28,838 nucleotides of DNA. It comes from a virus. The DNA is taken from positions 1-28,838 of the IMG/VR virus record IMGVR_UViG_3300042565_000366; one strand, written 5' to 3'. The position numbers were made by a program, and so were the translations under genes. Below the pieces are notes generated by a model. The model made no database searches, was not told where the DNA came from, and saw nothing but the letters and a program-made list of their open reading frames with translations. This document shows positions 4,075-14,303 of the stretch, piece by piece (the stretch's first letter is position 1; each line of letters opens with the position of its first letter).

Positions 4075-4342
4075 CGGGCTTGATAAATGTCACCTGAATG
4101 CCTGTCAGTATTGAACTGCCGTCAGCGTTTTCCAGCGCCACAGCCTGATGCGCCTTGCCGTCTACGCGGTCAATCAGCTCTTTGATCGCCCACGCTTCGC
4201 CCTGCTCGGCTTTGCTTACCAATTCCTCGGCGATCTTGCGCAAACGCTCTGGCTCTTGCGTCAATACCAGCCGCAGCTTGTCGTAGAACATCCTCGACTT
4301 CGCCGCGTTCTGATTGCCTATTGGTGCGCCACTGTTTGCCAT
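4058..4342 (-). CDS. Probable terminase small subunit
   Basis: The product is 94 aa. The N-terminus GAPIGNQNAAKSRMFYDKL is typical of small phage proteins placed directly before TerL, followed by a helical middle (LVLTQEPERLRKIAEELVSKAEQGEAWAIKE has family-like character), then DRVDGKAHQAV and a short beta-like end. The small terminase normally recognises the packaging site and activates TerL. It is smaller than P22 gp3 (162 aa) and no DNA-binding HTH is obvious, so the call rests largely on position and the GNQNAAK start. A GGGGATTGTGAC element lies rather far upstream of the ATG. Confidence 0.55.
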   Translation of the reverse strand: MANSGAPIGNQNAAKSRMFYDKLRLVLTQEPERLRKIAEELVSKAEQGEAWAIKELIDRVDGKAHQAVALENADGSSILTGIQVTFIKPDADSN

Positions 4343-4380
4343 ATTGTCACAATCCCCAAGTAATTGATTCCACGAAGGAA

Positions 4381-4527
4381 TTATTTCTTCGGCTTGTCTT
4401 TTTTCTCAGCGGCACGCTTCACGGCGTAGCTTATCGCCACGGCCTGCTTCACAGGCACACCAGCCTTGACTTCCGCTTTAATGTTCTTTTGGAAAGCCTG
4501 TTTACTGCTCGACTTGGTCAGCGGCAT
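4381..4527 (-). CDS. Small basic phage protein (48 aa)
   Basis: The ATG at 4525-4527 has an excellent ribosome-binding site (AAAGGAGCGAACG before ATG). The 48-aa product starts MPLTKSSSKQAFQKNIKAEV, contains KQAVAISYAVKRAA and ends in Lys-rich KKDKPKK. Short basic proteins with this start and the motif A-I-A/S-Y-xVK are common in structural regions of many phages, where their role is unknown. It shares its first 26 bases, in another frame, with the end of the gene upstream (4502-4666). Confidence 0.75.
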   Translation of the reverse strand: MPLTKSSSKQAFQKNIKAEVKAGVPVKQAVAISYAVKRAAEKKDKPKK

Positions 4528-4666
4528 CGTTCGCTCCTTTGCTCATTTCAGCTAGTACACGGTTGTACTCTTGGATTGCGCCGCTGATCTGCAACAGGAT
4601 CGATTCATGTTGCTTCGCCAGTTCTTGCAGTTCAGCCAGGCGTTTAGCAATTTGGTCAGGTGTCAT
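4502..4666 (-). CDS. Small helical protein, coiled-coil-like (54 aa)
   Basis: The ATG at 4664-4666 overlaps the TGA of the gene upstream (ATGA). The 54-aa product is almost entirely helical: MTPDQIAKRLAELQELAKQH followed by a heptad-like run to about residue 40, then a short acidic tail ending DQVEQ. The 3' end overlaps the next gene by 26 bases in a different frame. No family is recognised; a small oligomerising accessory protein is a guess. Confidence 0.65.
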   Translation of the reverse strand: MTPDQIAKRLAELQELAKQHESILLQISGAIQEYNRVLAEMSKGANDAADQVEQ

Positions 4667-4827
4667 TTCTTTTTCGCTGTTTTGGCGCTTTCTTTAAACG
4701 CTTTAGCCGTGGGTGCGCCTTCTGACCCAGGCTTGCGCATACGTTCAGGGGTCTTGCCTGCTTCCTTTTGGCGCTCTATCCGTTCACGCTTGGCGTGGAT
4801 GTTAGCGTATAGCCCTTTATTCGCCAT
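4663..4827 (-). CDS. Conserved small basic phage protein (54 aa)
   Basis: The product starts MANKGLYANIHAKRERIERQ and ends with GAPTAKAFKESAKTAKKK. Proteins with KGLYANIHAKR near the N-terminus and GAPT-AKAF near the C-terminus are, from memory, widespread in cyanophages and freshwater phages, with unknown function. The very high Lys/Arg content suggests nucleic-acid contact or a virion-internal role (inference). It overlaps the structural-looking gene upstream by 11 bases and is coupled by ATGA to the next gene. Confidence 0.75.
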   Translation of the reverse strand: MANKGLYANIHAKRERIERQKEAGKTPERMRKPGSEGAPTAKAFKESAKTAKKK

Positions 4828-5218
4828 GAATCACCGCATAATTGATGATGACAGCTTGAGACAAGTTGCCGCCAGTATTGTTGTACAGACCAATCATCGC
4901 CGACCCAGTAGCCTGAGATGCTACAAACGGCCAATATGCGCCAGCCGTGCCGCCGCCAGATACGCTAACAACTACCACATCTCTCGGCCCGATGGTGATG
5001 TTGTTCAATGTAAACAAAACTGATGCGCCACCGGCCAACAGCTCATTATTCATTGTGATGCGACCCATCGGCGTGTTCAGGGTCACCGCAGTGCTTTTGC
5101 TAGTGCCTTGAGTCACCGTGCCTTGGGCGCTTGCGGAATAGCCAAGTTCTTGACTAGCATAGCAAGTAGTAAATTCTGGGTCGCTATAAGCAACGCCAGA
5201 TGCAACGCTGTTAGACAT
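4817..5218 (-). CDS. Structural-looking protein with MSN-GVAY-DP start (133 aa)
   Basis: The product is 133 aa, rich in Gly, Ser, Thr, Val and beta-prone residues, with no signal peptide or membrane segment. It begins MSNSVASGVAYSDPEF, and the same N-terminal pattern opens the next structural-looking gene upstream (5378-5971). The C-terminal half (for example GRITMNNELL, SVLFTLNNITI, GAYWPFVASQ, MIGLYNNTGG) reads as a small beta sandwich of the kind found in capsid decoration or fibre proteins. A strong ribosome-binding site (GAAAGGATCAAATC) precedes the ATG. A virion surface or decoration role is inferred from composition and location in the late operon; no family is named with confidence. 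Confidence 0.75.
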   Translation of the reverse strand: MSNSVASGVAYSDPEFTTCYASQELGYSASAQGTVTQGTSKSTAVTLNTPMGRITMNNELLAGGASVLFTLNNITIGPRDVVVVSVSGGGTAGAYWPFVASQATGSAMIGLYNNTGGNLSQAVIINYAVIHGE

Positions 5219-5378
5219 GATTTGATCCTTTCACGTCATCCGGTGTGTCTAGCTTGGCTAGCAACATCCGGTAAATTGTTAATGAAGTTTCAGCCTGAAT
5301 CACAAAGGTGTGCGCCTTCTGCAACTCACGCTGAACCTCGCTAATCTCAGCTTCGATAAACTCTCGGCTTATTTCCAT
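5211..5378 (-). CDS. Small helical protein between two structural genes (55 aa)
   Basis: The product is 55 aa with a Glu/Gln/Lys-rich helix (EISREFIEAEISEVQRELQ region) followed by a second amphipathic helix and an acidic turn LDTPDD. The ATG overlaps the TAA of the 197-aa gene (TAATG), and the stop lies 8 bases inside the 133-aa gene, so it is tightly packed between the two. Its last codons carry the ribosome-binding site of the next gene. A coiled-coil accessory protein is plausible; no family is recognised. Confidence 0.65.
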   Translation of the reverse strand: MEISREFIEAEISEVQRELQKAHTFVIQAETSLTIYRMLLAKLDTPDDVKGSNHV

Positions 5379-5971
5379 TAAGCAATAGTGCTGACCATAA
5401 CGTAATAGGTCGTGCCGCCGCTGGTAACGGGAATAGTGTGCGTTACAACTGGCGAACCAACTTTGGCGCGGAATACACCGGTTGCGCTTACCGCGGGCAT
5501 GGCAGCAAAGTTACCGACTTCGCCGGTGCCAGAGTTAGTCACGCGCAGGAACGATGCGTTGCTCCATGTGCCGCCGGAAGCAAAGTCAGAATCCAGTTGC
5601 AGTGCAGCCAGGGTGCCGCCAGGGTTGGTCGAAGTCCCGCCGATGGTGGCTCTCAGAGCATTACCAGCACCGCTGATCGTGCCGCCAGTGTTTACCGATA
5701 AGCTAACGTGTGCGCCGTTCGTGGTCTGCCCAGCGCCTTGCGCAGCCGTTACACGGGACAAAGCCCGCAGAGTTTCACCAGCGCCAGCGCCAGCAAATTC
5801 CACACGGGAATACAGGCCACGAAAATCACCGGACGTGTGCGTGGTGCGCGAATAAATCTGGTTTAGATTGCCCGATGCAGTATTGGCAATAGGCACTGTC
5901 GCTGTGCCGACTTCAAAACTATTTAAGGCTGGGTCAGCGTATGCAACGCCAATGGCTTGCGTGTTAGACAT
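5378..5971 (-). CDS. Structural-looking beta-rich protein with MSN-GVAY-DP start (197 aa)
   Basis: The product is 197 aa, dominated by Gly, Thr, Ser, Ala and Val in alternating patterns typical of phage decoration or fibre proteins, with no membrane segment. It starts MSNTQAIGVAYADPALNSF, sharing its first ~14 residues with the 133-aa protein of 4817-5218. The body includes RGLYSRVEFAG, LRATIGGTSTNPGG and a C-terminus ending YYVMVSTIA. The ribosome-binding site is GAGAGGACTATC before ATG. A virion role is inferred from composition and from sitting in the late gene block. Confidence 0.75.
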   Translation of the reverse strand: MSNTQAIGVAYADPALNSFEVGTATVPIANTASGNLNQIYSRTTHTSGDFRGLYSRVEFAGAGAGETLRALSRVTAAQGAGQTTNGAHVSLSVNTGGTISGAGNALRATIGGTSTNPGGTLAALQLDSDFASGGTWSNASFLRVTNSGTGEVGNFAAMPAVSATGVFRAKVGSPVVTHTIPVTSGGTTYYVMVSTIA

Positions 5972-5981
5972 GATAGTCCTC

Positions 5982-6254
5982 TCAACAGTTCCAATTCTTA
6001 AGGGATGCCTTTGCCCGTTCTGCCGGGCCTTTGGCGTGCTTTACCACCCCTTCCATTCTCGCGCAAAAGCTCGCCTTGCGTCCAGCGTCAGCCTTCGTCT
6101 TTGGGTTTGGTGCTGGTGGTTTTAAGTTTGAATCATTCTTGCGGTTGTACTCTGCCCGACCCTTCGCGGTCATACCCGCGCCCTTCTCGGTCGGGTTGTA
6201 ATTCTTGCCCTTGCCGGTCGTGGTCTTAGGAATCGGCTTGTCGTGTTTAGCCAT
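5982..6254 (-). CDS. Conserved basic phage protein, KTTTGKGKNYNPTEKGAGMTAKGR type (90 aa)
   Basis: The product is 90 aa, starting MAKHDKPIPKTTTGKGKNYN and ending SLKNWNC. From memory, this pattern (I-P-K-T-T-x-G-x-G-K-N-Y-N-P, then GAGMTAKGRAEYNR, then SFCARM and a C-terminal WNC) recurs in many environmental phages and has no assigned function. The many Lys/Arg residues and low hydrophobicity suggest a disordered, possibly DNA- or capsid-binding protein (inference). It overlaps the GroES gene by 8 bases. Confidence 0.8.
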   Translation of the reverse strand: MAKHDKPIPKTTTGKGKNYNPTEKGAGMTAKGRAEYNRKNDSNLKPPAPNPKTKADAGRKASFCARMEGVVKHAKGPAERAKASLKNWNC

Positions 6255-6516
6255 TTTCAGCCTCGACGATCATGGCGATGTCGGCTTCCTGAATAATCTG
6301 GTAATCCTGCCCGTCCACCTCATGCACCGGCCAATCCAGATAAGTGCCGTTTCCGTATTTCACAAAGTCGCCAACCTGCGCGTCCCGCACCTGTGGGCCA
6401 ACAGCCACCACAGTGCCTTCGTTAAACTTTTCGTTGTTGGGGACGTACAGAATGTCCGACAAGCGACGCACCACAGGGCGCACCACGACGCGGTCACGCA
6501 ACGGTTTAATGTCCAT
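6247..6516 (-). CDS. Phage co-chaperonin, GroES (Cpn10) family
   Basis: The product is 89 aa, close to the ~95-97 aa of bacterial GroES. It starts with the hallmark MDIKPLRDRVVVRP, has a mobile-loop equivalent around residues 17-30 containing LSDILYVP (the ILY triplet replaces the GroEL-contacting IVL of E. coli GroES), then EGTVVAVGP (33-41), VGDFVKYG (48-55) and the C-terminal beta strand IIQEADIAMIVE. GroES caps GroEL during folding; phage versions such as T4 gp31 work with host GroEL to fold the coat protein. No GroEL is present here, so it would pair with host GroEL. I reject the start 23 codons upstream: ATG 6516 has a GGGAGA site and matches the family start. Confidence 0.9.
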   Translation of the reverse strand: MDIKPLRDRVVVRPVVRRLSDILYVPNNEKFNEGTVVAVGPQVRDAQVGDFVKYGNGTYLDWPVHEVDGQDYQIIQEADIAMIVEAENG

Positions 6517-6712
6517 TTTTGGGTCTCCCTCGTTTTTTGACTTCCGTTTGCGCCATAACGTCATAGACTGGAATAGACGCGACAACGGTTAGCTGGTGTT
6601 CGCCACACCAATCCATTTCGTGTTTGTTTTGAGTTTCGGGAAAACGACGACACAGGCCCATAACCTGGGCCTGCGTAAAGAAACGGCAGGATTTGCAACG
6701 GACATCGCTCAT
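6506..6712 (-). CDS. Small Cys-rich protein, putative zinc-binding (68 aa)
   Basis: The N-terminus reads MSDVRCKSCRFFTQAQVMGL and carries four Cys in a C-x2-C ... C ... C arrangement (C6, C9, C21, C36), consistent with a small zinc ribbon or iron-sulfur-like fold. Proteins with a CKSCRFF start occur in several phages with no known role. The gene ends 11 bases inside the GroES frame, and its last codons contain the GroES ribosome-binding site. The C-terminal KKRGRPKNGH resembles an AT-hook core but is partly dictated by that site. Confidence 0.75.
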   Translation of the reverse strand: MSDVRCKSCRFFTQAQVMGLCRRFPETQNKHEMDWCGEHQLTVVASIPVYDVMAQTEVKKRGRPKNGH

Positions 6713-6737
6713 AGGATGCCCGTTGTTTTATTGACAA

Positions 6738-6959
6738 TCACTTTTTCTGGTAAGACGAACGGTCGTGCGTATAGCACACGCCCTTAGAACGGCCACCGTT
6801 GAATTCTTTGTTGCTGCCGGTGCCATCAGCCATACCCATGCCTACGCCGTTCACAATCTTGCCACGGCGCTCACCCGACGAATCCGAAGCGGACGCGCCA
6901 GCAGGCGGCTTAGTGCCGGAACCGTAGCCTTTCGGGGTCATTTCTGCGTTGTCTTTCAT
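6738..6959 (-). CDS. Conserved Gly-rich phage protein ending in YTHDRSSYQKK (73 aa)
   Basis: ATG 6959 has the strong site GAAAGGACTATC, so I reject the start 16 codons upstream. The 73-aa product begins MKDNAEMTPKGYGSGTKPPA, has a Gly-rich middle GKIVNGVGMGMADGTGSN and ends with GVCYTHDRSSYQKK. From memory, this pattern recurs in environmental phages near DUF5856-like genes. It has no membrane segment and is probably disordered. Function unknown. Confidence 0.78.
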   Translation of the reverse strand: MKDNAEMTPKGYGSGTKPPAGASASDSSGERRGKIVNGVGMGMADGTGSNKEFNGGRSKGVCYTHDRSSYQKK

Positions 6960-6969
6960 GATAGTCCTT

Positions 6970-7329
6970 TCAGTCAAGGAATTTGAGTTTGTACAGCGTC
7001 GAATCAATCAATTCTGAAATTTCGTCAATGATATTCTGAATTTCACTGTCTTGGGGTAAATGTTCTCGCGCTTCGTCAACAAATTTCTGCATTTGTTTGA
7101 GATAAGCGATTGGGTCTTTGCCTGCGTGGAAATCATCGGGATATTTTTTGATCTTGGTATACCGCCCCTGATACGCCTCGGCAAAATTGTCGGTCAGCTC
7201 AATAATGTCCTCGTAATACCGCCCCAGCGCCTTGTGCGCCGAATAGGAATCCGTGGATAAGTGCATAAAATGCGCCACCGTGCTGCTGTGGAACAGCGTG
7301 GCAATAAATTCTGCGGCTTCTTCGTCCAT
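6970..7329 (-). CDS. Ferritin/Dps-like helical protein (DUF5856-like)
   Basis: The product is 119 aa and almost wholly helical, beginning MDEEAAEFIATLFHSSTVAH. It contains HFMHLSTDSYSAHKALGRYY and then DNFAEAYQGRY, a pattern of paired His and acidic residues reminiscent of the first two helices of Dps/ferritin-like four-helix bundles. I believe it belongs to the phage family DUF5856, whose function is unknown. Metal binding or DNA protection is inference only. It is the first gene after the terminator at 7339-7366, with AAGG directly before its ATG. Confidence 0.7.
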   Translation of the reverse strand: MDEEAAEFIATLFHSSTVAHFMHLSTDSYSAHKALGRYYEDIIELTDNFAEAYQGRYTKIKKYPDDFHAGKDPIAYLKQMQKFVDEAREHLPQDSEIQNIIDEISELIDSTLYKLKFLD

Positions 7330-7338
7330 ATCAGCCTT

Positions 7339-7366
7339 AAAAAAAAGACCGGGTTAGCGACCCCGG
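7339..7366 (-). terminator. Rho-independent terminator at the end of the leftward early operon
   Basis: Read on the minus strand, CCGGG (62-66), an 8-base loop and CCCGG (49-53) form a GC stem that is followed, after two bases, by eight consecutive T (7346-7339). It lies between the HNH gene (ends 7384) and the ferritin-like gene (starts 7329), and only about 9 bases separate the T-run from that ATG. It would stop early transcripts unless they are antiterminated. Confidence 0.82.
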
Positions 7367-7383
7367 CCAAAGCAGCGTCCCAA

Positions 7384-7743
7384 CTAGAGGAGCGAAAAGA
7401 GACGCTGCCATTCTGTGTCATTCGGCACGGGTACGTCAACTGGCCATAATCCCGCGTCCACCAAGTTCTCAACCGTCTTACGATGCGCCAGCCACCAGGC
7501 TTGCTGCCGTTCCTTACGCGACCATTTGCTGCCCTGATCGATGTCAAAGTGGCACGACGCACATAACGCCGCGATCAAATTGTCATCTGACTTAATCGAC
7601 CGGCCCTTGCCGCCGCCCCAGTTGGTGTGCGCCGCCTGAACAAAATCATACGACCCGCAGAGCTGGCATTCTAGCGTAGCCACCAACCGCAATAGCTTCT
7701 GGCTGCGCACATATTTGCGTTTAGGGATACTGATAACGGTCAT
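7384..7743 (-). CDS. HNH nuclease, YbcO-like, last gene of the nin-type region
   Basis: The product is 119 aa. Visible are C26-x2-C29 (ECQLCGS), H39 in VQAAHTNWGGGKG, a lysine/aspartate segment SIKSDDNLIAAL and C61-x2-C64-H65 (LCASCHFDID), which together match the zinc-bound HNH fold of the DUF1364/YbcO nucleases of lambdoid phages. These cut DNA and are thought to act in recombination or late processing. An 18-codon upstream extension in the raw frame is unlikely to be translated because it overlaps the preceding gene. ATG 7743 itself lacks a clear Shine-Dalgarno and is probably coupled to the gene upstream, which it overlaps by 23 bases. Confidence 0.75.
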   Translation of the reverse strand: MTVISIPKRKYVRSQKLLRLVATLECQLCGSYDFVQAAHTNWGGGKGRSIKSDDNLIAALCASCHFDIDQGSKWSRKERQQAWWLAHRKTVENLVDAGLWPVDVPVPNDTEWQRLFSLL

Positions 7744-7900
7744 TTTTGTCGTGGTTTTTGTAAATGCTTTCCGATCTGCGGTCCAAGCAAGCGGCACATA
7801 TCCAGCGTTTTGTGTTTCTAAAAACCCTTAATTCGCCTGTCGCTTCCTCGCGGTGCGCCTGGCAGCTTGTGCAAAACCGGCGCTTTGGTTCAGCTTCCAT
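7721..7900 (-). CDS. Small zinc-ribbon protein (59 aa)
   Basis: The product begins MEAEPKRRFCTSCQAHREEA and carries two C-x2-C knuckles: C10/C13 (FCTSC) and a second pair in WICAACLDRR about 25 residues later, the layout of a small zinc ribbon. I chose ATG 7900, not the raw frame start at 7990, because the 30 extra codons overlap another gene in a different frame and the domain starts here. It overlaps the gene upstream by 11 bases and the HNH gene by 23. It may bind nucleic acid; role unknown. Confidence 0.72.
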   Translation of the reverse strand: MEAEPKRRFCTSCQAHREEATGELRVFRNTKRWICAACLDRRSESIYKNHDKNDRYQYP

Positions 7901-8051
7901 TTTTCTTATGCTCACGGTCAAAATAGCCGTTTTCAGCCTCCAGCACCCGCAGATCATTAGCCGCATCTGATACGCCGTGCCAATCCGCACGCGTTACCAT
8001 CAATTGCAGATAGTCAATCAGGGTTTGTCGCTGCGCTTCGTAGTTTGTCAT
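7890..8051 (-). CDS. Small conserved phage protein (53 aa)
   Basis: ATG 8051 follows AGAGGAATCTAGG, a good ribosome-binding site, and matches the usual start of this small family: MTNYEAQRQTLIDYLQLMVT, then WHGVSDAANDLRVLEAE. From memory, proteins with DWHGVSDAANDLRVLEA are frequent in phages of beta-proteobacteria, always short and without known function. It is helical and coupled by ATGA to the gene upstream. Confidence 0.75.
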   Translation of the reverse strand: MTNYEAQRQTLIDYLQLMVTRADWHGVSDAANDLRVLEAENGYFDREHKKNGS

Positions 8052-8224
8052 CCTAGATTCCTCTGCCGAATCATGTCGGCCAGTTCCGCAGGCACCGCTG
8101 CGCGGCTGGCTTCTTCGCACAGCTTGGCGCACTCTGCGCGTTCTTGTTTTATCGCCCAGCGCACCGCGTCGCGGGTATCGCTGTGCAGCATGATGGCCGA
8201 CTTTAGGATTTCGTCGGTATTCAT
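8048..8224 (-). CDS. Small helical hypothetical protein (58 aa)
   Basis: The start is taken at ATG 8224, which overlaps the TGA of the gene upstream (ATGA at 8221-8224); the longer raw frame to 8341 lies wholly within that gene. The 58 residues (MNTDEILKSAIMLHSDTRDA at the start) are helical with two Cys in ECAKLCEEAS. No family is recognised. The tight coupling at both ends argues that it is real. Confidence 0.65.
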   Translation of the reverse strand: MNTDEILKSAIMLHSDTRDAVRWAIKQERAECAKLCEEASRAAVPAELADMIRQRNLG

Positions 8225-9091: not shown

Positions 9092-9278
9092 TCATGTCAC
9101 CAATTAAAATTTCGACTGCCTTCTGCCCACGCTTAACGGCAATCTGGCGCTTTATATCTTCCCACCACGTTACCGCCGCTTTCGCGCCATGTTCCTTTTT
9201 ATGCAATTTGTACTGTGCTACCCAAAACTTCGCTTCTGTAATTCGCCGCCATTCCTCAGACCAAGTGTATGCAGTCAA
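9057..9278 (-). CDS. Small hypothetical protein, TTG start (73 aa)
   Basis: The frame has no ATG at its head. The start appears to be TTG 9278, which overlaps the TGA of the gene upstream as TTGA. The residues begin MTAYTWSEEWRRITEAKFWV and contain AVTWWEDIKRQIAVKRG, rich in Trp and basic residues. The last 35 bases overlap the VRR-NUC gene in another frame. Proteins of this look (WRRI-EAK-W at the start) occur in phage nin regions; function unknown. Confidence 0.6.
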   Translation of the reverse strand: MTAYTWSEEWRRITEAKFWVAQYKLHKKEHGAKAAVTWWEDIKRQIAVKRGQKAVEILIGDMNAQSSKSRQKP

Positions 9279-9883
9279 ATTTTTTCTGCCACAATAATTT
9301 TGCGATATTGGTCTAAAACCTTGCCACGACTAAAACCTGTAATGAGTCCAGTTTGTTTGTTTTTGCGCCACAAAGTTGAATCTGTTTTGCCTATTGCTGG
9401 CTCAAGCCCTATGGTTTCAAATAATTCCGGCAATAGTTGTTTGCGCCAAACATTTATTTTTCTCATACGACGCACACCACCATCAACAATAGCAACCACT
9501 TCGTAGCCTAACGCTTTCCAAAATTTGTTGGCATCGATGTCGAATCCGCATCGCAAAGAAACGCAAGTTGCGTTGCCCTGATTTGCATATTCTTCCATAG
9601 CTGCAACCAACGCGGCTCCATGCATTTTTAATCTTGCATCATACTCAATGCAAACCTGATGACATTTAACAGCGTTGTTTTGCGCACCAACGTAAATGTA
9701 ACCACATGGTTGTCCATTTAATAAACCTAAAAATAATCGACCTTTTTCTTTTTCTCGTTCAAATACTTGTTTTGGATAAAACGACAATGCTTCTGCATTT
9801 TTTTTCTGCAAAAAATCAATATAAATCAACATTTCTGGATGATCTTGCACGACAACAAAATTATTCATAGCAAAATTACTCAT
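9275..9883 (-). CDS. GNAT-like acetyltransferase with C-terminal extension
   Basis: The product is 202 aa from ATG 9883, which overlaps the stop of the tiny membrane-protein gene (AATGAGTAA); ATG 9868 is an alternative. GNAT-like features are a substrate-binding N-terminal half, a strand with GRLFLGLLNGQPCGYIYVG, the helix MHGAALVAAMEEYANQG in the acetyl-CoA binding position, then VSLRCGFDIDANKFWKALGY, the typical C-terminal GNAT ending (N-x-A/K-FW-x-x-x-G-F/Y). About 70 further residues are unassigned. GNATs acetylate proteins or small molecules; the substrate is unknown. Base composition is clearly lower in GC (many AAAAA/TTTTT runs, some lines near 25-40% GC) than the flanking NinB and VRR genes, which suggests separate acquisition. 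Confidence 0.72.
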   Translation of the reverse strand: MSNFAMNNFVVVQDHPEMLIYIDFLQKKNAEALSFYPKQVFEREKEKGRLFLGLLNGQPCGYIYVGAQNNAVKCHQVCIEYDARLKMHGAALVAAMEEYANQGNATCVSLRCGFDIDANKFWKALGYEVVAIVDGGVRRMRKINVWRKQLLPELFETIGLEPAIGKTDSTLWRKNKQTGLITGFSRGKVLDQYRKIIVAEKI

Positions 9884-9995
9884 TCGGGTTATCAAGCAAC
9901 AGCACCGCCAACCAGCCAGCAATAAAAAAAATGACACCAGCGCCCATCAACCCACCTGCGACCAGCAAAATAATTTCAGCAAAGGTTACGTTCAT
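9876..9995 (-). CDS. Tiny single-pass membrane protein (39 aa)
   Basis: An ATG at 9993-9995 opens 39 codons: MNVTFAEIILLVAGGLMGAG followed by a hydrophobic run through IAGWLAVLLL and a polar end DNPNE. Nearly the whole chain can form one or two membrane helices. It starts 20 bases inside the HTH gene, preceded by GAGGGCAGAAG, and its stop overlaps the acetyltransferase start. It is too short to classify; similar tiny hydrophobic proteins in early operons act in superinfection control or host takeover, but that is not shown here. Confidence 0.6.
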   Translation of the reverse strand: MNVTFAEIILLVAGGLMGAGVIFFIAGWLAVLLLDNPNE

Positions 9996-10221
9996 CTTCT
10001 GCCCTCTGAATCAACATTTTGATTTCAGCCACCGACATACCAAACTTTTCGTGCATATCCAAAATCAGCGCCGCCGATACCTGGCAAGTGCCATGCCGAA
10101 ACTTTGAGATCATGCTAGGTGCGCAACCAATCTCACGCGCTAACTCACAATCGTTGACGCAATGCAACCTGTTGCGCAGATCGTCCATCAGCGCGTGCGG
10201 TGGTATTGGATTCTTTCTCAT
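9976..10221 (-). CDS. Helix-turn-helix regulator-like protein (81 aa)
   Basis: The product is 81 aa. The DNA-binding motif is seen at about residues 25-45: CELAREIGCAPSMISKFRHG, an XRE-type HTH, followed by helices ILDMHEKFGMSVAEIKMLI. It starts with a good AAGGGG site before ATG. It sits after the P-like gene, where lambdoid phages carry small regulators, and could control the late switch or host genes. It is not a CI-type repressor (no C-terminal protease or dimer domain). Confidence 0.72.
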   Translation of the reverse strand: MRKNPIPPHALMDDLRNRLHCVNDCELAREIGCAPSMISKFRHGTCQVSAALILDMHEKFGMSVAEIKMLIQRAEDERNLC

Positions 10222-10230
10222 TCTTTCCCC

Positions 10231-10908
10231 TTATGTCGGTGCGTTTAACGCTGCCTTAGCCATCGACACCTGAACCGGCAAAAGAGATTTATCGCCATGT
10301 TCGTGCCGTTCCATAATTTTTTTTGCCCATCGCTTATGGTCAATGTGGCTTGATTCTGACTTATGAACTTGCATCTTTGCAAGATATTTTTGTGCAACTT
10401 CAGCAGAAACCTTAACCGGCGGCAAAGAAACCACAGGTTTAGGTATTTCAGGCCATTGTGATTTTTCTAACTCATCACCGAGCGCGCTTTCCCACCGACC
10501 TTTAATTTGTAAGTAAGTTGCGTTTTTTATATCAAACGCACCAACGCGCACAGCAGCCCAAAAAACCGCCGGATGGCTCCATACCCCAACCTCGCCTCGA
10601 TCTCGCGCCATAAGCCCGTTTAATGCCTCTGTGAAGGCTTTTTGAGCGTCTAGCTTTGGGCGGCAAAGATTGATGAACTGCGGCAGGCTCGGCGGCCATT
10701 CCAAAGTCATTAGCGCTTGTGCGCCTTTGGTAACTTCCTCGCGGCTTAGTTTGCCCAGTTCTTGCGACCAAAGTGCCTTGACCTGCTCTGGGTCGGTGCC
10801 GCGCCACATATCGGCAAACTTGCTGCCATAAAGCGCTGCCATACGTTCAAAGAGCTTCTCAATCCAAGCGGTCGGTAGCGGTTCAGATGTCGATAATTGT
10901 GGTGTCAT
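10231..10908 (-). CDS. Replication protein, lambda P-like helicase loader
   Basis: The product is 225 aa (lambda P is 233). The N-terminal half has WIEKLFERMAALYGSKFADM, then LSREEVTKGAQALMTLEWPP and SLPQFINLCRP, which match the P/phage replication protein P family. The C-terminal half includes VAQKYLAKMQ and a basic KRWAKKIMERHEHGD. P proteins bring the host DnaB helicase to the origin bound by the initiator. It overlaps the DUF1376 gene by 26 bases in a lambda-like O-P arrangement. Confidence 0.82.
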   Translation of the reverse strand: MTPQLSTSEPLPTAWIEKLFERMAALYGSKFADMWRGTDPEQVKALWSQELGKLSREEVTKGAQALMTLEWPPSLPQFINLCRPKLDAQKAFTEALNGLMARDRGEVGVWSHPAVFWAAVRVGAFDIKNATYLQIKGRWESALGDELEKSQWPEIPKPVVSLPPVKVSAEVAQKYLAKMQVHKSESSHIDHKRWAKKIMERHEHGDKSLLPVQVSMAKAALNAPT

Positions 10909-11581
10909 GGCTTTTCTTTCCGGTTAATCCCTCGATGATTTCACGGCGGCTGCGGTCTTTGGCGCTTTCAAACGTCCGCGCCCCCTTTTCATTTCGCACC
11001 CACGTTTTCCAAACCCGCGACCAATCCATCTTGACGGCTTTGATGCCAGCCTGGGCCAGCCAGTAATCGCGGAAATTCTCGGCCACGCGCTGCCATTGCA
11101 GATCGGTTCTTTCTTTTTTGCAATAGGCAATATCCTCGGCGCTGGGTTCCCAGTTGGCAGGCAAGCGCGTCCCGCGCTGCTTCTCTACTCTTTTTATTGG
11201 TTCTTGTTTATTGGTTATTGGTTCTTGGTTTATGGTTGGTTGAACGTCCGTTGAACGGTCGTTGAACCGCCGTTCCGCAGAGGCTTTGCCAGCCCTTGAT
11301 GCTTGCTCAACTTTGCTGCGGTATTTTTCGATTTCGCGGTCAGCGCGATGGTGAATCCAGCCGCCTTCGGTCAGCTCAAAAAACTCATTCAGGATGGTTT
11401 TGACGGCTTCTTCGTTGGCACGCATGTTGATCTGGCGTGCAACGGACGTTGAACACTCGTTTAACGGGCGTTCTTGAAGATAGTAGGCATCAAGCAAGCG
11501 CCGGTAGGCTAAATCTTCAAGATCAGAAAGGTGGCGCGTATGGCTGGCGTAATCGCCAATATTAAATTGGTAATAGTGCAT
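10883..11581 (-). CDS. DUF1376 (YdaU-like) replication initiator candidate
   Basis: The product is 232 aa. The DUF1376 domain spans about residues 1-95: MHYYQFNIGDYASHTRHLSD, EDLAYRRLLDAYYLQERPLN, and GGWIHHRADREIEKY near its end. A low-complexity linker (about 100-130, with the repeated NQEPI/KQEPI) joins a C-terminal region with LPANWEPSAEDIAYCKKE and FRDYWLAQAGIKAVKMDWSR, as found at the end of many phage O-like proteins. Position before the P-like gene marks it as the initiator equivalent. Its coding DNA carries two clusters of 11-bp tandem repeats, as expected if the origin lies inside the initiator gene. Ribosome-binding site GGAGTTGAA before ATG, possibly masked (11585-11630). Confidence 0.85.
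   Translation of the reverse strand: MHYYQFNIGDYASHTRHLSDLEDLAYRRLLDAYYLQERPLNECSTSVARQINMRANEEAVKTILNEFFELTEGGWIHHRADREIEKYRSKVEQASRAGKASAERRFNDRSTDVQPTINQEPITNKQEPIKRVEKQRGTRLPANWEPSAEDIAYCKKERTDLQWQRVAENFRDYWLAQAGIKAVKMDWSRVWKTWVRNEKGARTFESAKDRSRREIIEGLTGKKSHDTTIIDI
11191..11239. other. T/G-rich low-GC tract, candidate DNA-unwinding element
   Basis: These 49 bases have only about 31% GC and just two C on the plus strand. ATTGGTT occurs at 11196, 11210 and 11217, twice extended to ATTGGTTCTTG. The tract directly abuts the three 11-bp repeats at 11240-11272, as the easily melted region abuts the iterons in the lambda origin. Part of the repetition is also seen in the protein (QEPI twice), so a coding origin cannot be excluded. 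Confidence 0.45.
11240..11272. repeat. Iteron cluster A: three tandem 11-bp repeats
   Basis: Units are TTGAACGTCCG (11240-11250), TTGAACGGTCG (11251-11261) and TTGAACCGCCG (11262-11272), all sharing TTGAAC and a final CG. The 11-base period is one helical turn and not a multiple of three, so it is not produced by a repeated peptide. It lies within the DUF1376 gene. Confidence 0.65.
11438..11470. repeat. Iteron cluster B: three degenerate tandem 11-bp repeats
   Basis: Units are TGCAACGGACG (11438-11448), TTGAACACTCG (11449-11459) and TTTAACGGGCG (11460-11470), degenerate copies of the cluster A unit (consensus TTGAACGGNCG). The cluster starts 198 bases from cluster A, exactly eighteen 11-base periods. 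It lies in the part of the gene that codes for the DUF1376 domain. Confidence 0.55.
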
Positions 11582-11584
11582 TTC

Positions 11585-11630
11585 AACTCCGCATCACTCC
11601 CAGAGAGAAACCAGCGGCAGGCGGGGAGTT
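11585..11630 (-). promoter_or_regulatory. Possible stem masking the ribosome-binding site of the DUF1376 gene
   Basis: On the minus-strand transcript, AACTCCCCGC (11630-11621) can pair with GCGGAGTT (11592-11585), leaving a two-base CC bulge. GGAGTT is the Shine-Dalgarno of the gene starting at 11581. Pairing would hide it; the loop is about 28 bases. Sequence-only inference. Confidence 0.3.
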
Positions 11631-11679
11631 CGCTTTTCGGTCGGGGGATCAATCCTAACCTAGCCGGGTTTATCTAATT

Positions 11680-11838
11680 TTAGCCAACAAACCAATCTGG
11701 TCGCAAGACCTGTAGCTGCCAAATCCGCTGTTGCGGCAGCTTTTCGCCCCACTGACTAATTGCCTGTCTGGTAACGCCTAGCAATCTGGCAAGTTCTGAC
11801 GCACTGCCAGCTAGATTAATTGCGGTTTTAGTATCCAT
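11680..11838 (-). CDS. cro: Cro-like repressor (P22 Cro family), 52 aa
   Basis: A 53-codon frame starts at ATG 11836-11838 and reads MDTKTAINLAGSASELARLL, then GVTRQAISQWGEKLPQQRIW and ends QLQVLRPDWFVG. The helix-turn-helix is residues 14-32 (ELARLLGVTRQAISQW), and the following Leu-Pro-x-x-R-x-x-x-Leu plus LRPDWF tail is typical of P22-type Cro proteins (P22 Cro is 61 aa). Cro proteins repress early promoters and help commit to lytic growth. It is the first gene of the leftward replication operon, as in lambda, and faces operator-like repeats. There is no Shine-Dalgarno before the ATG, and the predicted -10 box places the transcript start at about the ATG, so the mRNA may be leaderless. Confidence 0.85.
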   Translation of the reverse strand: MDTKTAINLAGSASELARLLGVTRQAISQWGEKLPQQRIWQLQVLRPDWFVG

Positions 11839-11844
11839 GCGCGA

Positions 11845-11873
11845 ATTTTAAGCTAGATTAAATTATTTTGCAA
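11845..11873 (-). promoter_or_regulatory. Predicted leftward early promoter for cro and the replication genes
   Basis: Minus strand: -35 TTGCAA (11868-11873), 17-base spacer, -10 TAAAAT (11845-11850, 5/6 to consensus). The expected start point is about 11838-11839, on or next to the cro ATG. Operator-like repeat O1 fills the spacer. The -35 is only a 4/6 match. Confidence 0.5.
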
Positions 11874-11909
11874 AGATAGCTTGACATGGGTGTAAAGCTG
11901 GCTTAAATT
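11850..11909. promoter_or_regulatory. Three operator-like repeats in the divergent control region
   Basis: Three related 15-mers lie at even spacing: O1 AAGCTAGATTAAATT (11850-11864), O2 AAGATAGCTTGACAT (11873-11887) and O3 AAGCTGGCTTAAATT (11895-11909). O1 and O3 match at 13 of 15 positions. The core is a palindrome AAGC-NN-GCTT, perfect in O3 and one mismatch off in O1 and O2. Spacing is 23 and 22 bases, two helical turns, like the lambda operators. A further copy of AGCTAGATTAA lies inside cro (11809-11819). They are the likely Cro targets, by position. Confidence 0.65.
11881..11908 (+). promoter_or_regulatory. Predicted rightward early promoter
   Basis: Plus strand: perfect -35 TTGACA (11881-11886), 16-base spacer, -10 TTAAAT (11903-11908). 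Repeat O2 covers the -35 and O3 covers the -10, so a protein bound there would block it. It drives the genes from 11946 onward. Only 7 bases separate its -35 from the -35 of the leftward promoter. Confidence 0.65.
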
Positions 11910-11945
11910 TGTCATACCGGCACAACATTATCAAAGGAGAAACAA

Positions 11946-12134
11946 ATGGACAACCAAATAAATAAGCAAGGTTCAGTAAAAATCGGCAGATCAGGAACAA
12001 AACTGCATCCAGCATTTATTGACCCACGATACGGCTTAATCATTCAATGTTCTTGCCCCGGAACTCAGCAAGGTAGCGCATACAAGGGAGCAAGATTTTT
12101 TGAAAACGTAGCGGCAAATTGCAACAAGCGTTAA
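11946..12134 (+). CDS. First gene of the rightward operon, hypothetical (62 aa)
   Basis: The ATG is preceded by a very good ribosome-binding site (AAAGGAGAAACAA). The 62 residues begin MDNQINKQGSVKIGRSGTKL and contain HPAFIDPRYGLIIQCSCPGT and KGARFFENVAANC. There is no HTH, so it is not the repressor that occupies the divergent position in lambda. Three Cys and a central hydrophobic strand suggest a small globular protein. First-gene position and strong translation signals imply abundant early expression. No family recognised. Confidence 0.7.
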   Translation: MDNQINKQGSVKIGRSGTKLHPAFIDPRYGLIIQCSCPGTQQGSAYKGARFFENVAANCNKR

Positions 12135-12140
12135 TCAACC

Positions 12141-12163
12141 AGCCGGGGAAACCCGGCTTCTTT
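12141..12163 (+). terminator. Hairpin with GAAA tetraloop, possible terminator or attenuator
   Basis: AGCCGGG (12141-12147) and CCCGGCT (12152-12158) form a perfect 7-bp stem closed by a GAAA tetraloop, followed by TCTTT. It ends just before the AGGAG of the next gene (ATG 12174). The T-run is short, so it may act as an attenuator or as an mRNA-stabilising or processing hairpin. Confidence 0.55.
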
Positions 12164-12173
12164 AGGAGCAGCC

Positions 12174-12350
12174 ATGTACACAGTTGAATACTACGACGAT
12201 GCCGACCAGCGCCCAACTTGGTGCGTGGTCGAGTGGACTATTAGCGAAAACCAGAAAACCGGCAAGACCATAGAACGCTGCGGCACGCAGGCAGAAGCCG
12301 AATCAATTGCTGTTGCTTATATATTGATTGACCGTTTGACCTTTGCGTAA
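12174..12350 (+). CDS. Small hypothetical protein (58 aa)
   Basis: An ATG preceded by TTTAGGAGCAGCC opens 58 codons: MYTVEYYDDADQRPTWCVVE at the start, then GKTIERCGTQAEAESIAVAY and a hydrophobic end LIDRLTFA. It looks like a small alpha/beta protein. Phages of this type often carry such 55-65 aa proteins near the recombination genes; function unknown. It is flanked on both sides by hairpin-plus-AGGAG leaders. Confidence 0.68.
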   Translation: MYTVEYYDDADQRPTWCVVEWTISENQKTGKTIERCGTQAEAESIAVAYILIDRLTFA

Positions 12351-12400
12351 ACCCAGCTTAATATCTACCCATGCCCTCACGGGTCTTTTTAGGAGTTTTT

Positions 12401-12583
12401 ATGTTTATCGATTTCGTTATCCTCCCCTCCGATTTCAACGACACCACGATCACCTTCGTGGCCGAAACCACCGCAGCCAAAGCTCGTTTCGACGGCGCAA
12501 TCAGCATTCAGGTACGCAAAAGCGCAGCCCCCAGCTTGGCCGACCAGCTTGAAGCGCAAGGTTTTACGGTGCGCACAGCATGA
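12401..12583 (+). CDS. Small hypothetical protein (60 aa)
   Basis: The start is ATG 12401 with AGGAG five bases upstream; an in-frame ATG at 12371 lies in the leader stem and is rejected. The protein reads MFIDFVILPSDFNDTTITFV and then ETTAAKARFDGAISIQVRKS, ending with a helix ADQLEAQGFTVRTA, a small beta-beta-alpha pattern. Its stop overlaps the next start (ATGA). Confidence 0.65.
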   Translation: MFIDFVILPSDFNDTTITFVAETTAAKARFDGAISIQVRKSAAPSLADQLEAQGFTVRTA

Positions 12584-12678
12584 ACCGCGAACCTAGCGAC
12601 CTCGTCCTGGCACTGGCGGCAGTCTGTATCGCCGCCGTTCTGTACTTACTGCTGTGGGTAGCAATGGCGATCTTCTAA
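12580..12678 (+). CDS. Tiny single-pass membrane protein (32 aa)
   Basis: The frame starts in an ATGA overlap and ends immediately before the ATG of the next gene. Its 32 residues begin MNREPSDLVLALAAVCIAAV and run on as a hydrophobic helix to MAIF, giving one membrane span (about 8-32) with a short charged N-terminus. Tight packing between two genes supports it; function unknown. Confidence 0.55.
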   Translation: MNREPSDLVLALAAVCIAAVLYLLLWVAMAIF

Positions 12679-12879
12679 ATGGAACTGCTCAAGTCAACCG
12701 CGTTTGTAGTAGCCGTGCCGGTATTCGTAGCTGGATACCTAGCGGTCTGGACGCTCGGCCAAAAGCCAGTTGACCCACCAGTAATTGAGCAACCCATCGA
12801 AGAAAAGCCAGCAATCGTAGACGCAGCCGTAACCGTCGAACCCGCCTCAGTAGGGCAAGAAATAATGGTGCAGCCATGA
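12679..12879 (+). CDS. Small membrane-anchored protein with Pro/Glu-rich tail (66 aa)
   Basis: An N-terminal membrane helix (about residues 5-26, including AFVVAVPVFVAGYLAVW) is followed by a Pro/Glu/Val-rich tail (PVDPPVIEQPIEEKPAIVD). There is no lipobox. It follows the 32-aa membrane gene with no gap, so the two may work together at the inner membrane (inference). It overlaps the ERF gene by four bases. Confidence 0.6.
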   Translation: MELLKSTAFVVAVPVFVAGYLAVWTLGQKPVDPPVIEQPIEEKPAIVDAAVTVEPASVGQEIMVQP

Positions 12880-13490
12880 CACAACAACAATTTTATGAAA
12901 CCGTACAGCGAGCAGAGGAATATATGGAAACCTTTAGCAAAGTAGCAGCAGCGTTTGTCAAAGCCCAGCGCGAATTCGGCCCTGCGCTTAAATCAGCCAC
13001 CAACCCGCATTTCCGGTCACGCTACGCCGACCTGTCGGCCTGCGTCGAAGCGGTCATCGATGCGCTAAATAACAACAATATCGCCATGACGCAGCGCACC
13101 AGTATGTGCAGCGACGGCATCATTATCGAAACCGTGTTTGTCCACGAAAGCGGTGAGATTATGTCCTGCGGCCAGCTCCACGTTCCGGCCAGCAAGCAAG
13201 ACCCGCAAGGCTACGGCTCGGCGTTGACCTATGCCCGACGCTATTCGCTGATGGCTGCCTGCGGTATCGCGCCCGAAGATGACGATGGCAATGCCGCCAG
13301 CCGCCGCAAGCCGCTGCCTGACATTACCGACCACCTGTCAGCCATCGAAGCCAGCGCTAATAGCGAGGAACTGGCGGTTGTATTTAAGGCTGCAATTGAG
13401 GCTTGCGGTGAGCATCAGGAATTGCAGGCCAAAGTAATCGCAGCAAAGAAAACCCGCGTCGAACGCGCTAAAAAGGAAAAAGCACAATGA
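12876..13490 (+). CDS. erf: ERF-family single-strand annealing protein
   Basis: The product is 204 aa (P22 Erf is 204). ERF proteins anneal complementary strands during recombination and genome circularisation. Family features are VAAAFVKAQREFGPALKSA near the N-terminus, HFRSRYADLSACVEAVIDAL (about 45-64) and the hallmark GSALTYARRYSLMAACGIAP (about 114-133) followed by an acidic EDDDGN. The C-terminus is helical and Lys-rich (VERAKKEKAQ). It pairs with the YqaJ exonuclease downstream as in lambda Exo-Bet. Confidence 0.92.
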   Translation: MTQQQFYETVQRAEEYMETFSKVAAAFVKAQREFGPALKSATNPHFRSRYADLSACVEAVIDALNNNNIAMTQRTSMCSDGIIIETVFVHESGEIMSCGQLHVPASKQDPQGYGSALTYARRYSLMAACGIAPEDDDGNAASRRKPLPDITDHLSAIEASANSEELAVVFKAAIEACGEHQELQAKVIAAKKTRVERAKKEKAQ

Positions 13491-13690
13491 AAGCATTTCC
13501 ATCAGCCACCGGTGCCGTAGGAATGGAACTACGCGATTACTTTGCAGCGCAGGCTATACCAGCAGTTATGGCAGACTCGGATACGCTAAAAACATCACAA
13601 AGAACTGGGGAGGATTTTACTGTTTGCGTTGCAGTTATTGCTTACCGTATAGCAGACGAAATGATGAAAGCGAGGCAACAAAATGGATGA
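13487..13690 (+). CDS. Small hypothetical phage protein (67 aa)
   Basis: The start overlaps the ERF stop (ATGA) and the end overlaps the exonuclease start by 8 bases. It reads MKAFPSATGAVGMELRDYFA, then AQAIPAVMADSD and a C-terminal helix AVIAYRIADEMMKARQQNG. From memory, small proteins with M-E-L-R-D-Y-F-A-A-x-A and a C-terminal AY-x-ADAM-like helix are very common in proteobacterial phages; no function is known. The setting suggests a link with recombination. Confidence 0.78.
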   Translation: MKAFPSATGAVGMELRDYFAAQAIPAVMADSDTLKTSQRTGEDFTVCVAVIAYRIADEMMKARQQNG

Positions 13691-14303
13691 GCAACGCACA
13701 GAAGATTGGTTTAGCGCCCGCCTGGGTAAGGTCACCGCATCTCGCGTGGCCGACGTACTAGCTAGGACCAAAACCGGCTACAGCGCCAGCCGTGCTAATT
13801 ACTTGACCCAGCTTGTATTGGAACGAGTAACCGGCACCAAATCCGAAGGGTTTACCAGCGCCGCAATGCAATGGGGCATCGACCAGGAACCCTTCGCACG
13901 GGCGGCTTACGAAGCCTCTAAGGGCGTTTTAGTGGATGAAGTGGGTTTCATACCGCACCCAACCATCGAAGCCTCTGGCGCCTCGCCTGACGGCTTGGTG
14001 GGCGCTGACGGCATGGTCGAGATTAAATGCCCCGACAGCAAGACCGCGTTGGAATGCTGGCTGTCAGCCGATCCGGTGGAATCCAAGTATTTCACGCAAA
14101 TGCAGTGGCAAATGGCCTGCGCTGGGCGGTTCTGGTCCGACTACGTTGTATTCGACCCACGGATGCCTGCCAAAGCCCAGCTTTTTGTCTACCGCGTCGA
14201 GCGTGATGATAAGTGGATCAAAGAAACAGAAATTGAAGTCAAAAAGTTTTTGGCTGAAGTCGATGCCAAAGTTGCAGCACTACGCAAAATCATAGGAGAG
14301 TGA
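13683..14303 (+). CDS. YqaJ/lambda-Exo family recombination exonuclease
   Basis: The product is 206 aa (lambda Exo is 226). It degrades the 5' strand from DNA ends so that the ERF protein can anneal the exposed 3' strand. Catalytic residues can be placed: Glu69 in WGIDQEPFAR, Asp103 in GASPDGLVG, and Glu113/Lys115 in MVEIKCPDSK, followed by QMQWQMACAGRFWSDYVVFD. The N-terminus DWFSARLGKVTASRV is typical. It stops two bases before the next ATG. Confidence 0.93.
   Translation: MDEQRTEDWFSARLGKVTASRVADVLARTKTGYSASRANYLTQLVLERVTGTKSEGFTSAAMQWGIDQEPFARAAYEASKGVLVDEVGFIPHPTIEASGASPDGLVGADGMVEIKCPDSKTALECWLSADPVESKYFTQMQWQMACAGRFWSDYVVFDPRMPAKAQLFVYRVERDDKWIKETEIEVKKFLAEVDAKVAALRKIIGE

Follow-up and report, generated by a model that had tools for sequence, protein, structure and literature searches.

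The question of what Cro contributes to lytic growth without an opposing CI is a long-standing one, and most work on it has used temperate phages or mutants. The locus considered here raises it again: in a 28,838-base stretch of viral DNA (the window), a cro-type gene lies in one of two early operons that leave a common control region in opposite directions. The original prediction took this for a lambdoid immunity region collapsed to Cro alone, perhaps in a virulent lineage. How such a region would work, and whether a repressor or integrase lies elsewhere, was addressed with profile searches and comparisons across related phage genomes.

A P22 Cro-family gene at the head of an early operon

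The start of cro (11838, minus strand) is separated by 107 bp from that of the first rightward gene (11946, plus strand), which confirms that two early operons diverge from a single 107-base region. The principal genes on either side are as follows.

11680–11838, minus strand: cro, predicted 52-aa P22_Cro-family repressor; ATG at 11838, no Shine-Dalgarno (SD) sequence
10883–11581, minus strand: DUF1376 primosomal/replication initiation protein, downstream of cro (PF07120, E = 4e-26; phrog_3992, E = 2.2e-37)
10231–10908, minus strand: lambda P-like helicase loader (phrog_109, E = 6.6e-14)
9976–10221, minus strand: 81-aa HTH regulator downstream of P, weakly CII-like (phrog_638, E = 3.8e-7)
11946–12134, plus strand: first gene of the rightward early operon, 62 aa; SD AAAGGAG
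12876–13490, plus strand: Erf single-strand annealing protein of the rightward operon (PF04404, E = 1.2e-21; phrog_2324, E = 6.3e-41)
13683–14303, plus strand: recombination exonuclease of the rightward operon (phrog_149, E = 4e-46)

The 52-aa protein belongs to the P22_Cro family (PF14549, E = 1.4e-13, 50.8 bits against a cut-off of 30.2), its nearest solved relative is P22 Cro (structure 1RZS, phmmer E = 7.9e-4), and its gene comes first in the early operon, before the replication genes. In the rightward operon, small genes precede those for Erf and the exonuclease. P22-type portal, terminase, head-completion and DNA-ejection genes are also encoded in the window. The second-best Pfam match of the 52-aa protein is YdaS_toxin (PF15943), with 34.5 bits over a cut-off of 30, and the homologue in MW202520 is annotated as a "putative antitoxin". 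That the gene encodes a YdaS-like toxin instead of a Cro repressor is nevertheless highly improbable, given that the YdaS score is well under that of P22_Cro and that the protein covaries with its putative operators (see below); moreover, YdaS itself has been argued to be a Cro analogue, binding operators between divergent operons, in the prophage CP-933P (PMC8630535).

Some additional features of the early region and its surroundings were recorded. A GNAT acetyltransferase (PF13673/PF00583) is encoded at 9275–9937 (minus strand) in a nin-like region, and between this region and terminase there are two minus-strand genes (6247–6585 and 6970–7329), a GroES-like co-chaperonin and a match to phrog_858, "starvation-inducible transcriptional regulator". 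The GroES-like assignment was made from sequence and from the annotation at the syntenic place in MW202520. In MW202520.1 (locus L153) the early module (4240–8056, equivalent to 9976–14303 of the window) is inverted relative to the late genes, and it is the erf operon that faces groES and terminase there, as opposed to the cro operon in the window.

Predicted promoters and operators of the control region

Two divergent sigma70-type promoter sequences and three palindromic candidate operators are found inside the 107-bp gap.

11845–11874, minus strand: predicted leftward early promoter (cro and replication operon), TTGCAA-17-TAAAAT, 9/12
11868–11873, minus strand: -35 of the leftward promoter, TTGCAA
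11845–11850, minus strand: -10 of the leftward promoter, TAAAAT, followed by 6 nt (TCGCGC) and the cro ATG
11881–11909, plus strand: predicted rightward early promoter, TTGACA-17-TAAATT, 10/12
11846–11863: candidate operator O1, ATTTAATCTAGCTTAAAA in the cro sense, an 18-bp palindrome over the leftward spacer and -10
11869–11886: candidate operator O2, TGTCAAGCTATCTTTGCA, covering the rightward -35 and extending to the leftward one
11891–11908: candidate operator O3, ATTTAAGCCAGCTTTACA, covering both the -10 and the spacer of the rightward promoter

The leftward promoter can also be parsed as TTTGCA-18-TAAAAT (11874–11845). Transcription of cro would start at 11838 or within 1–2 nt of it.

The operator cores are AAGCTAGATT (11850–11859), AAGATAGCTT (11873–11882) and AAGCTGGCTT (11895–11904), with 1, 1 and 0 mismatches, respectively, to AAGCNNGCTT, a perfect palindrome that occurs only once in the 28,838 bases. 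They are spaced 23 and 22 bp apart, as originally described, and the spaced triple scores 67 compared with 47.9 ± 2.9 in shuffles of the same region (z = 6.7). O3 is the nearest of the three to the operators of P22, differing by one letter from the P22 type A.T.AAG-N4-CTT.A.T.

Three predicted operators between divergent promoters are expected of a lambdoid immunity region, and the spacing is close to that of lambda OR (23 and 22 bp here, 23 and 24 bp in lambda). The centres of O1, O2 and O3 are 16.5, 39.5 and 61.5 bp from the cro ATG; those of lambda OR3, OR2 and OR1 are 19, 42 and 66 bp from the cI ATG. The likeness extends to lambda PRM, in which TAGATT is followed by six bases and then the cI ATG, the same 6-nt geometry as that of cro here. 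In its spacing, then, the region matches PRM-OR-PR, cro taking the PRM-like side, and the suggestion that the region merges PL and PR is not upheld. Unlike in lambda, the PRM-like side carries cro and the replication genes, the other side carries the recombination operon, and there is no CI.

A partial fourth copy of the repeat within cro (11808–11817) was rejected as a further operator: its bases code for N-L-A-G, conserved residues of Cro, and codon changes have removed it in relatives (TTCCCTAGCTGGC in L092 and AAACTTGCTGGT in L095).

Operators and the Cro recognition helix vary together

Operator spacing varies from class to class, and for this reason a generic test for palindrome triples, applied to all relatives, gives a clear result in the window class and in some others only. 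Operators in relatives were counted by class-specific consensus in its place. The comparison of operators in related phages proposed at the outset is favourable: loci with the recognition helix Q25..SQW carry 42 sites of the form TGTNAAGC-NN-GCTTNACA in 20 loci, where 1.0 would be expected. Several other recognition-helix classes have no clear operator triple. In many of the Q25..SQW relatives O1 starts 25 nt before the cro ATG, while O2 and O3 are found at -48 and -70 when the gap is short (107–113 bp, the window type) and near -69 and -91 when it is long (about 140–150 bp). An evenly spaced triple is therefore a feature of the short-spacer members only, O2 being about 44 bp from O1 elsewhere. 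As O1 is fixed near cro and O2 and O3 shift with the gap, the rightward promoter appears to be served by O2 and O3 and the cro promoter by O1, although O2 extends to the cro -35 as well in the short version found in the window.

The operator half-site changes in step with the residue at position 25 of Cro. Gln is found with AAG/CTT, while Gly, Ser or Ala mostly accompany another core, such as TAG/CTA (TGTATAG-N4-CTANACA); the association has a Fisher p of 3e-5 in the set with <60% upstream identity, without correction for phylogeny. This covariation is the strongest sign from sequence that Cro recognises these sites, and gives indirect support to the idea that it would bind the operators and repress the early promoters, including its own. 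Locus L002 shares the DUF1376 protein with the window at 92% and has a Cro that is 75% identical, in which the recognition helix is altered, and operators of another kind at comparable spacing, suggesting that Cro specificity can switch between near relatives.

The operator type GTAAA...TTTAC, with TH for SQ in the helix and similar spacing, is seen upstream of cro in the close relatives L002, L005 and L095–L097; such types resemble heteroimmune alleles, in a non-lysogenic group. The first gene divergent from cro also appears exchangeable around a constant control region. In the class with Gly25 (L116, L035 and L039) it is often a conserved 322-aa protein (MAHLIEN...), as against the 62-aa protein of the window class, and in L085 (IMGVR_UViG_3300046010_001584) a 195-aa ORF has apparently been inserted immediately on the divergent side of cro, in front of the small early genes normally found there.

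The cro mRNA is probably leaderless

Two features that the original prediction had missed are a probable leaderless cro mRNA and the conservation of the system across a large phage group. A TAnnnT hexamer is found exactly 6 nt before the cro ATG in 34 of 41 nonredundant loci, and at 6–8 nt in 40/41, while the best position in 2000 shuffled sets reaches at most 8/41. The loci were reduced to <75% identity over the upstream 60 bases, which leaves redundancy above 55%; at a stricter cut of 55% the same geometry is present in 22/23. A -35-like hexamer is found 16–18 bp from the -10 in 54% of loci (14% when shuffled). SD-like words precede cro in 1/41, compared with 35/41 for DUF1376, the next gene of the same operon, and 13/14 for the portal gene, the starts of these control genes being defined by homology. 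The window's own cro has the two marks of a leaderless gene, a -10 at 6–8 nt from the ATG and no SD, and is probably translated from a leaderless mRNA. Among 16 nonredundant temperate P22_Cro comparators, by contrast, a CI homologue is found upstream in 15 and an SD in 15, and none has the leaderless geometry; in relatives with CI, cro is preceded by a leader.

The -10 and O1 overlap, so operator conservation could account for part of the conservation of the -10. However, the distance from -10 to ATG is constant in classes with other operators, such as those with TGTATAG half-sites, and the placement of the -10 is therefore not merely a by-product of operator placement. No Rfam match was obtained, and the RNA fold of the cro start is not stabler than shuffles (z = 0.85), giving no sign of a special 5' structure.

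Being Cro-only and being leaderless do not always coincide, since MW202544 has a long cro leader and PdC23 has Cro without CI, yet a led cro. At least three changes of the leaderless/CI-less label are required on the Cro tree, a tentative count from 54 usable columns in which long branches meet. MW202520 and MW202674 fall within the P22-like part and PdC23, CI-less and led, within the leaderless part, again tentatively. The leaderless, CI-less state may thus occur in at least two separate parts of the tree. As to the proposed collapse to Cro alone, the Cro-only condition stands, and the direction of evolution that the word implies is conjectural.

Absence of lysogeny genes in the window and its relatives

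In the window, the profile search returned no match to PF00589, PF00717 or PF12844, in agreement with the earlier statement that it holds no CI-type gene; PF01381 (HTH_3) gave weak matches only, at Cro itself and at the 81-aa HTH protein. The search was extended to 29 virus records plus three circular GenBank genomes, and then to 20 further virus records. PF00589 (tyrosine integrase) and PF00717 (S24) are missing from all 49 related virus genomes, about 15 of which were counted as closed by end repeats of 52–211 bp, and from the three circular ones. PF00239 (serine recombinase) was found neither in the window nor in any of 15 closed relatives and two circular genomes. As positive controls, P22 and BUCT566 match both PF00589 and PF00717, and K242 matches S24. 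HTH_3 matches in the related genomes are mostly weak and often Cro itself; among family members only G026 and the 81-aa HTH protein of G029 exceed the cut-off. No CI-like gene lies upstream of cro at any of 136 Cro-only loci examined. Thus, of the features of a lambdoid immunity region, a CI gene divergent from cro and an integrase were both absent from the window and its relatives.

The closed relative G029 has 34,403 bases and a 127-bp repeat at its ends; it is collinear with the window, with a nucleotide identity per block of roughly 69–94%. Its additional stretch supplies the remainder of the scaffold and a 418-aa P22-type coat protein, along with small or tail-fibre-like proteins; these names come from sequence resemblance and from the order of the genes. 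As this stretch is structural and the genomes are collinear, the Cro-only state is not an accident of a fragmentary sequence. A CI or integrase gene in the missing part, the outcome that would have refuted the original prediction, was seen in none of these relatives.

It could be supposed that another protein, such as the 81-aa HTH protein (9976–10221), is the true lysogeny repressor and that the group is temperate. This protein has weak CII/repressor-like matches, and exceeds the HTH_3 cut-off in G029. However, it is encoded in the early operon behind P, HTH_3 matches at its position are limited to the close relatives G000, G001, G002, G003 and G029 and are not seen in other closed genomes, and no integrase or resolvase was found. 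A temperate group is extremely improbable, and the 81-aa protein, to judge from this distribution, is not the CI equivalent of the group.

Related Cro proteins are numerous in IMG/VR (121 and 362 stretches in two viral-contig scans), but only four, two of them weak, were found in one genome per species from 84,980 bacterial and archaeal species, which is not the distribution of a prophage family. These few matches hint, though no more than that, at Comamonadaceae as hosts. The phage group is probably virulent, as suggested originally, on the basis of the absence of lysogeny genes. That absence is one of recognisable profiles, and an unrecognised small repressor is possible.

Temperate P22-like relatives do exist: Xanthomonas phage PBR31 has an integrase, a c repressor and a portal protein that is 49% identical. 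Rhodoferax phage P26218 shares the portal and has a different replication module with no annotated Cro. The existence of PBR31 would fit a recently temperate P22-like phage that lost cI and int, leaving cro and its operators as fading remnants. This is very unlikely, as Cro is conserved down to about 55% identity across highly diverged genomes together with operators, promoter spacing and the leaderless start, and coevolves with its operators. Such conservation and coevolution indicate selection and not decay.

Relationship to known Cro systems

With Salmonella phage P22 (c2-OR-cro) the system shares a P22_Cro-family protein, A.T.AAG-N4-CTT.A.T operators (as read from the P22 record), the position of cro upstream of replication genes, and P22-type head genes. 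P22 differs in having c2, PL/OL and int, and in that its cro has a leader and SD. Leaderless repressor mRNAs are known from several systems. That of lambda cI is one (PMC8630535), and a leaderless cro mRNA has been shown by RACE in the immB region of the telomere phage PY54 (PMC4488713), although PY54 is temperate, has cI, and has a Cro that binds a single operator. The paaR2/ydaS region of CP-933P in E. coli O157:H7 has a 97-bp divergent region and a leaderless regulator (PMC8630535), but in that system it is the CI analogue that is leaderless, so that CI has not been lost.

Similar arrangements are found in PdC23 (OL396571) and in the metagenomic circular genomes MW202520 and MW202674, which have a Cro-type gene divergent from an erf-containing operon and no CI gene annotated or found adjoining cro. 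Pantoea phage PdC23 is an isolate, and differs in that its cro has a leader with SD; in MW202520 and MW202674 cro is leaderless, but the Cro proteins group with the P22-like set. In the literature searched there was no account of a phage group lacking CI and integrase with a conserved leaderless cro and coevolving operators. Leaderless cro is already known from PY54, and what is new is its probable occurrence in a phage group without CI. The system is a variant of the P22/lambda Cro-operator system, and is not classed as a CI/Cro lysogeny switch because CI and integrase were searched for and not found.

A probable Cro-only brake on both early operons

The reading that we consider probable is that no other switch controls the early genes of this virulent P22-like podovirus, in which both early operons are braked by autoregulated Cro alone. 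Once inside the cell, host RNA polymerase would start on the phage DNA in both directions from the back-to-back sigma70 promoters, transcribing cro and the replication genes leftward and the recombination genes rightward. With predicted start sites about 78 bp apart, two polymerases would hardly fit at once. The cro mRNA would begin at or next to the AUG, and Cro would be translated with no ribosome-binding site ahead of its start codon, whereas the later genes of the operon would use normal ones. Cro on O2 and O3 would cover the rightward promoter and on O1 the cro promoter, so that rising Cro would shut off the recombination operon through O2/O3 and damp its own operon through O1. Promoter activity, repression of both promoters and the order in which the operators fill are here what we infer from the arrangement of sites. 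Lacking CI and integrase, the circuit would be a plain negative feedback brake and not a bistable lysis-lysogeny switch.

The same layout, a counterpart of lambda PRM-OR-PR in which Cro stands where cI would be, could alternatively serve a carrier or pseudolysogenic state, in which Cro as sole repressor sustains its own leaderless expression without integration and excludes related superinfecting phages by cross-immunity. The L002-type divergence of specificity together with Cro, as in heteroimmune phages, would be in keeping with this. Yet no partition, integrase or plasmid-maintenance gene was recognised, and Cro relatives are almost absent from bacterial genomes. Lambda Cro, furthermore, is a weaker, non-cooperative repressor that favours lysis, and a carrier state in the phage of the window is unlikely. 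The broader proposition, that across a large uncultivated phage group Cro took over the expression mode of CI (leaderless and PRM-like) and became a stand-alone repressor setting a carrier state or cross-immunity, its heteroimmune-type specificities diversifying with no member lysogenising, is doubtful.

With the feedback brake as the preferred reading, these phages would constitute a widespread natural group with Cro alone, coevolving operators, and a cro mRNA apparently leaderless like that of lambda cI. The role of Cro in lytic growth, and the reason for leaderless repressor mRNAs, would thereby become directly testable with 107 bp of DNA and a 52-aa protein.
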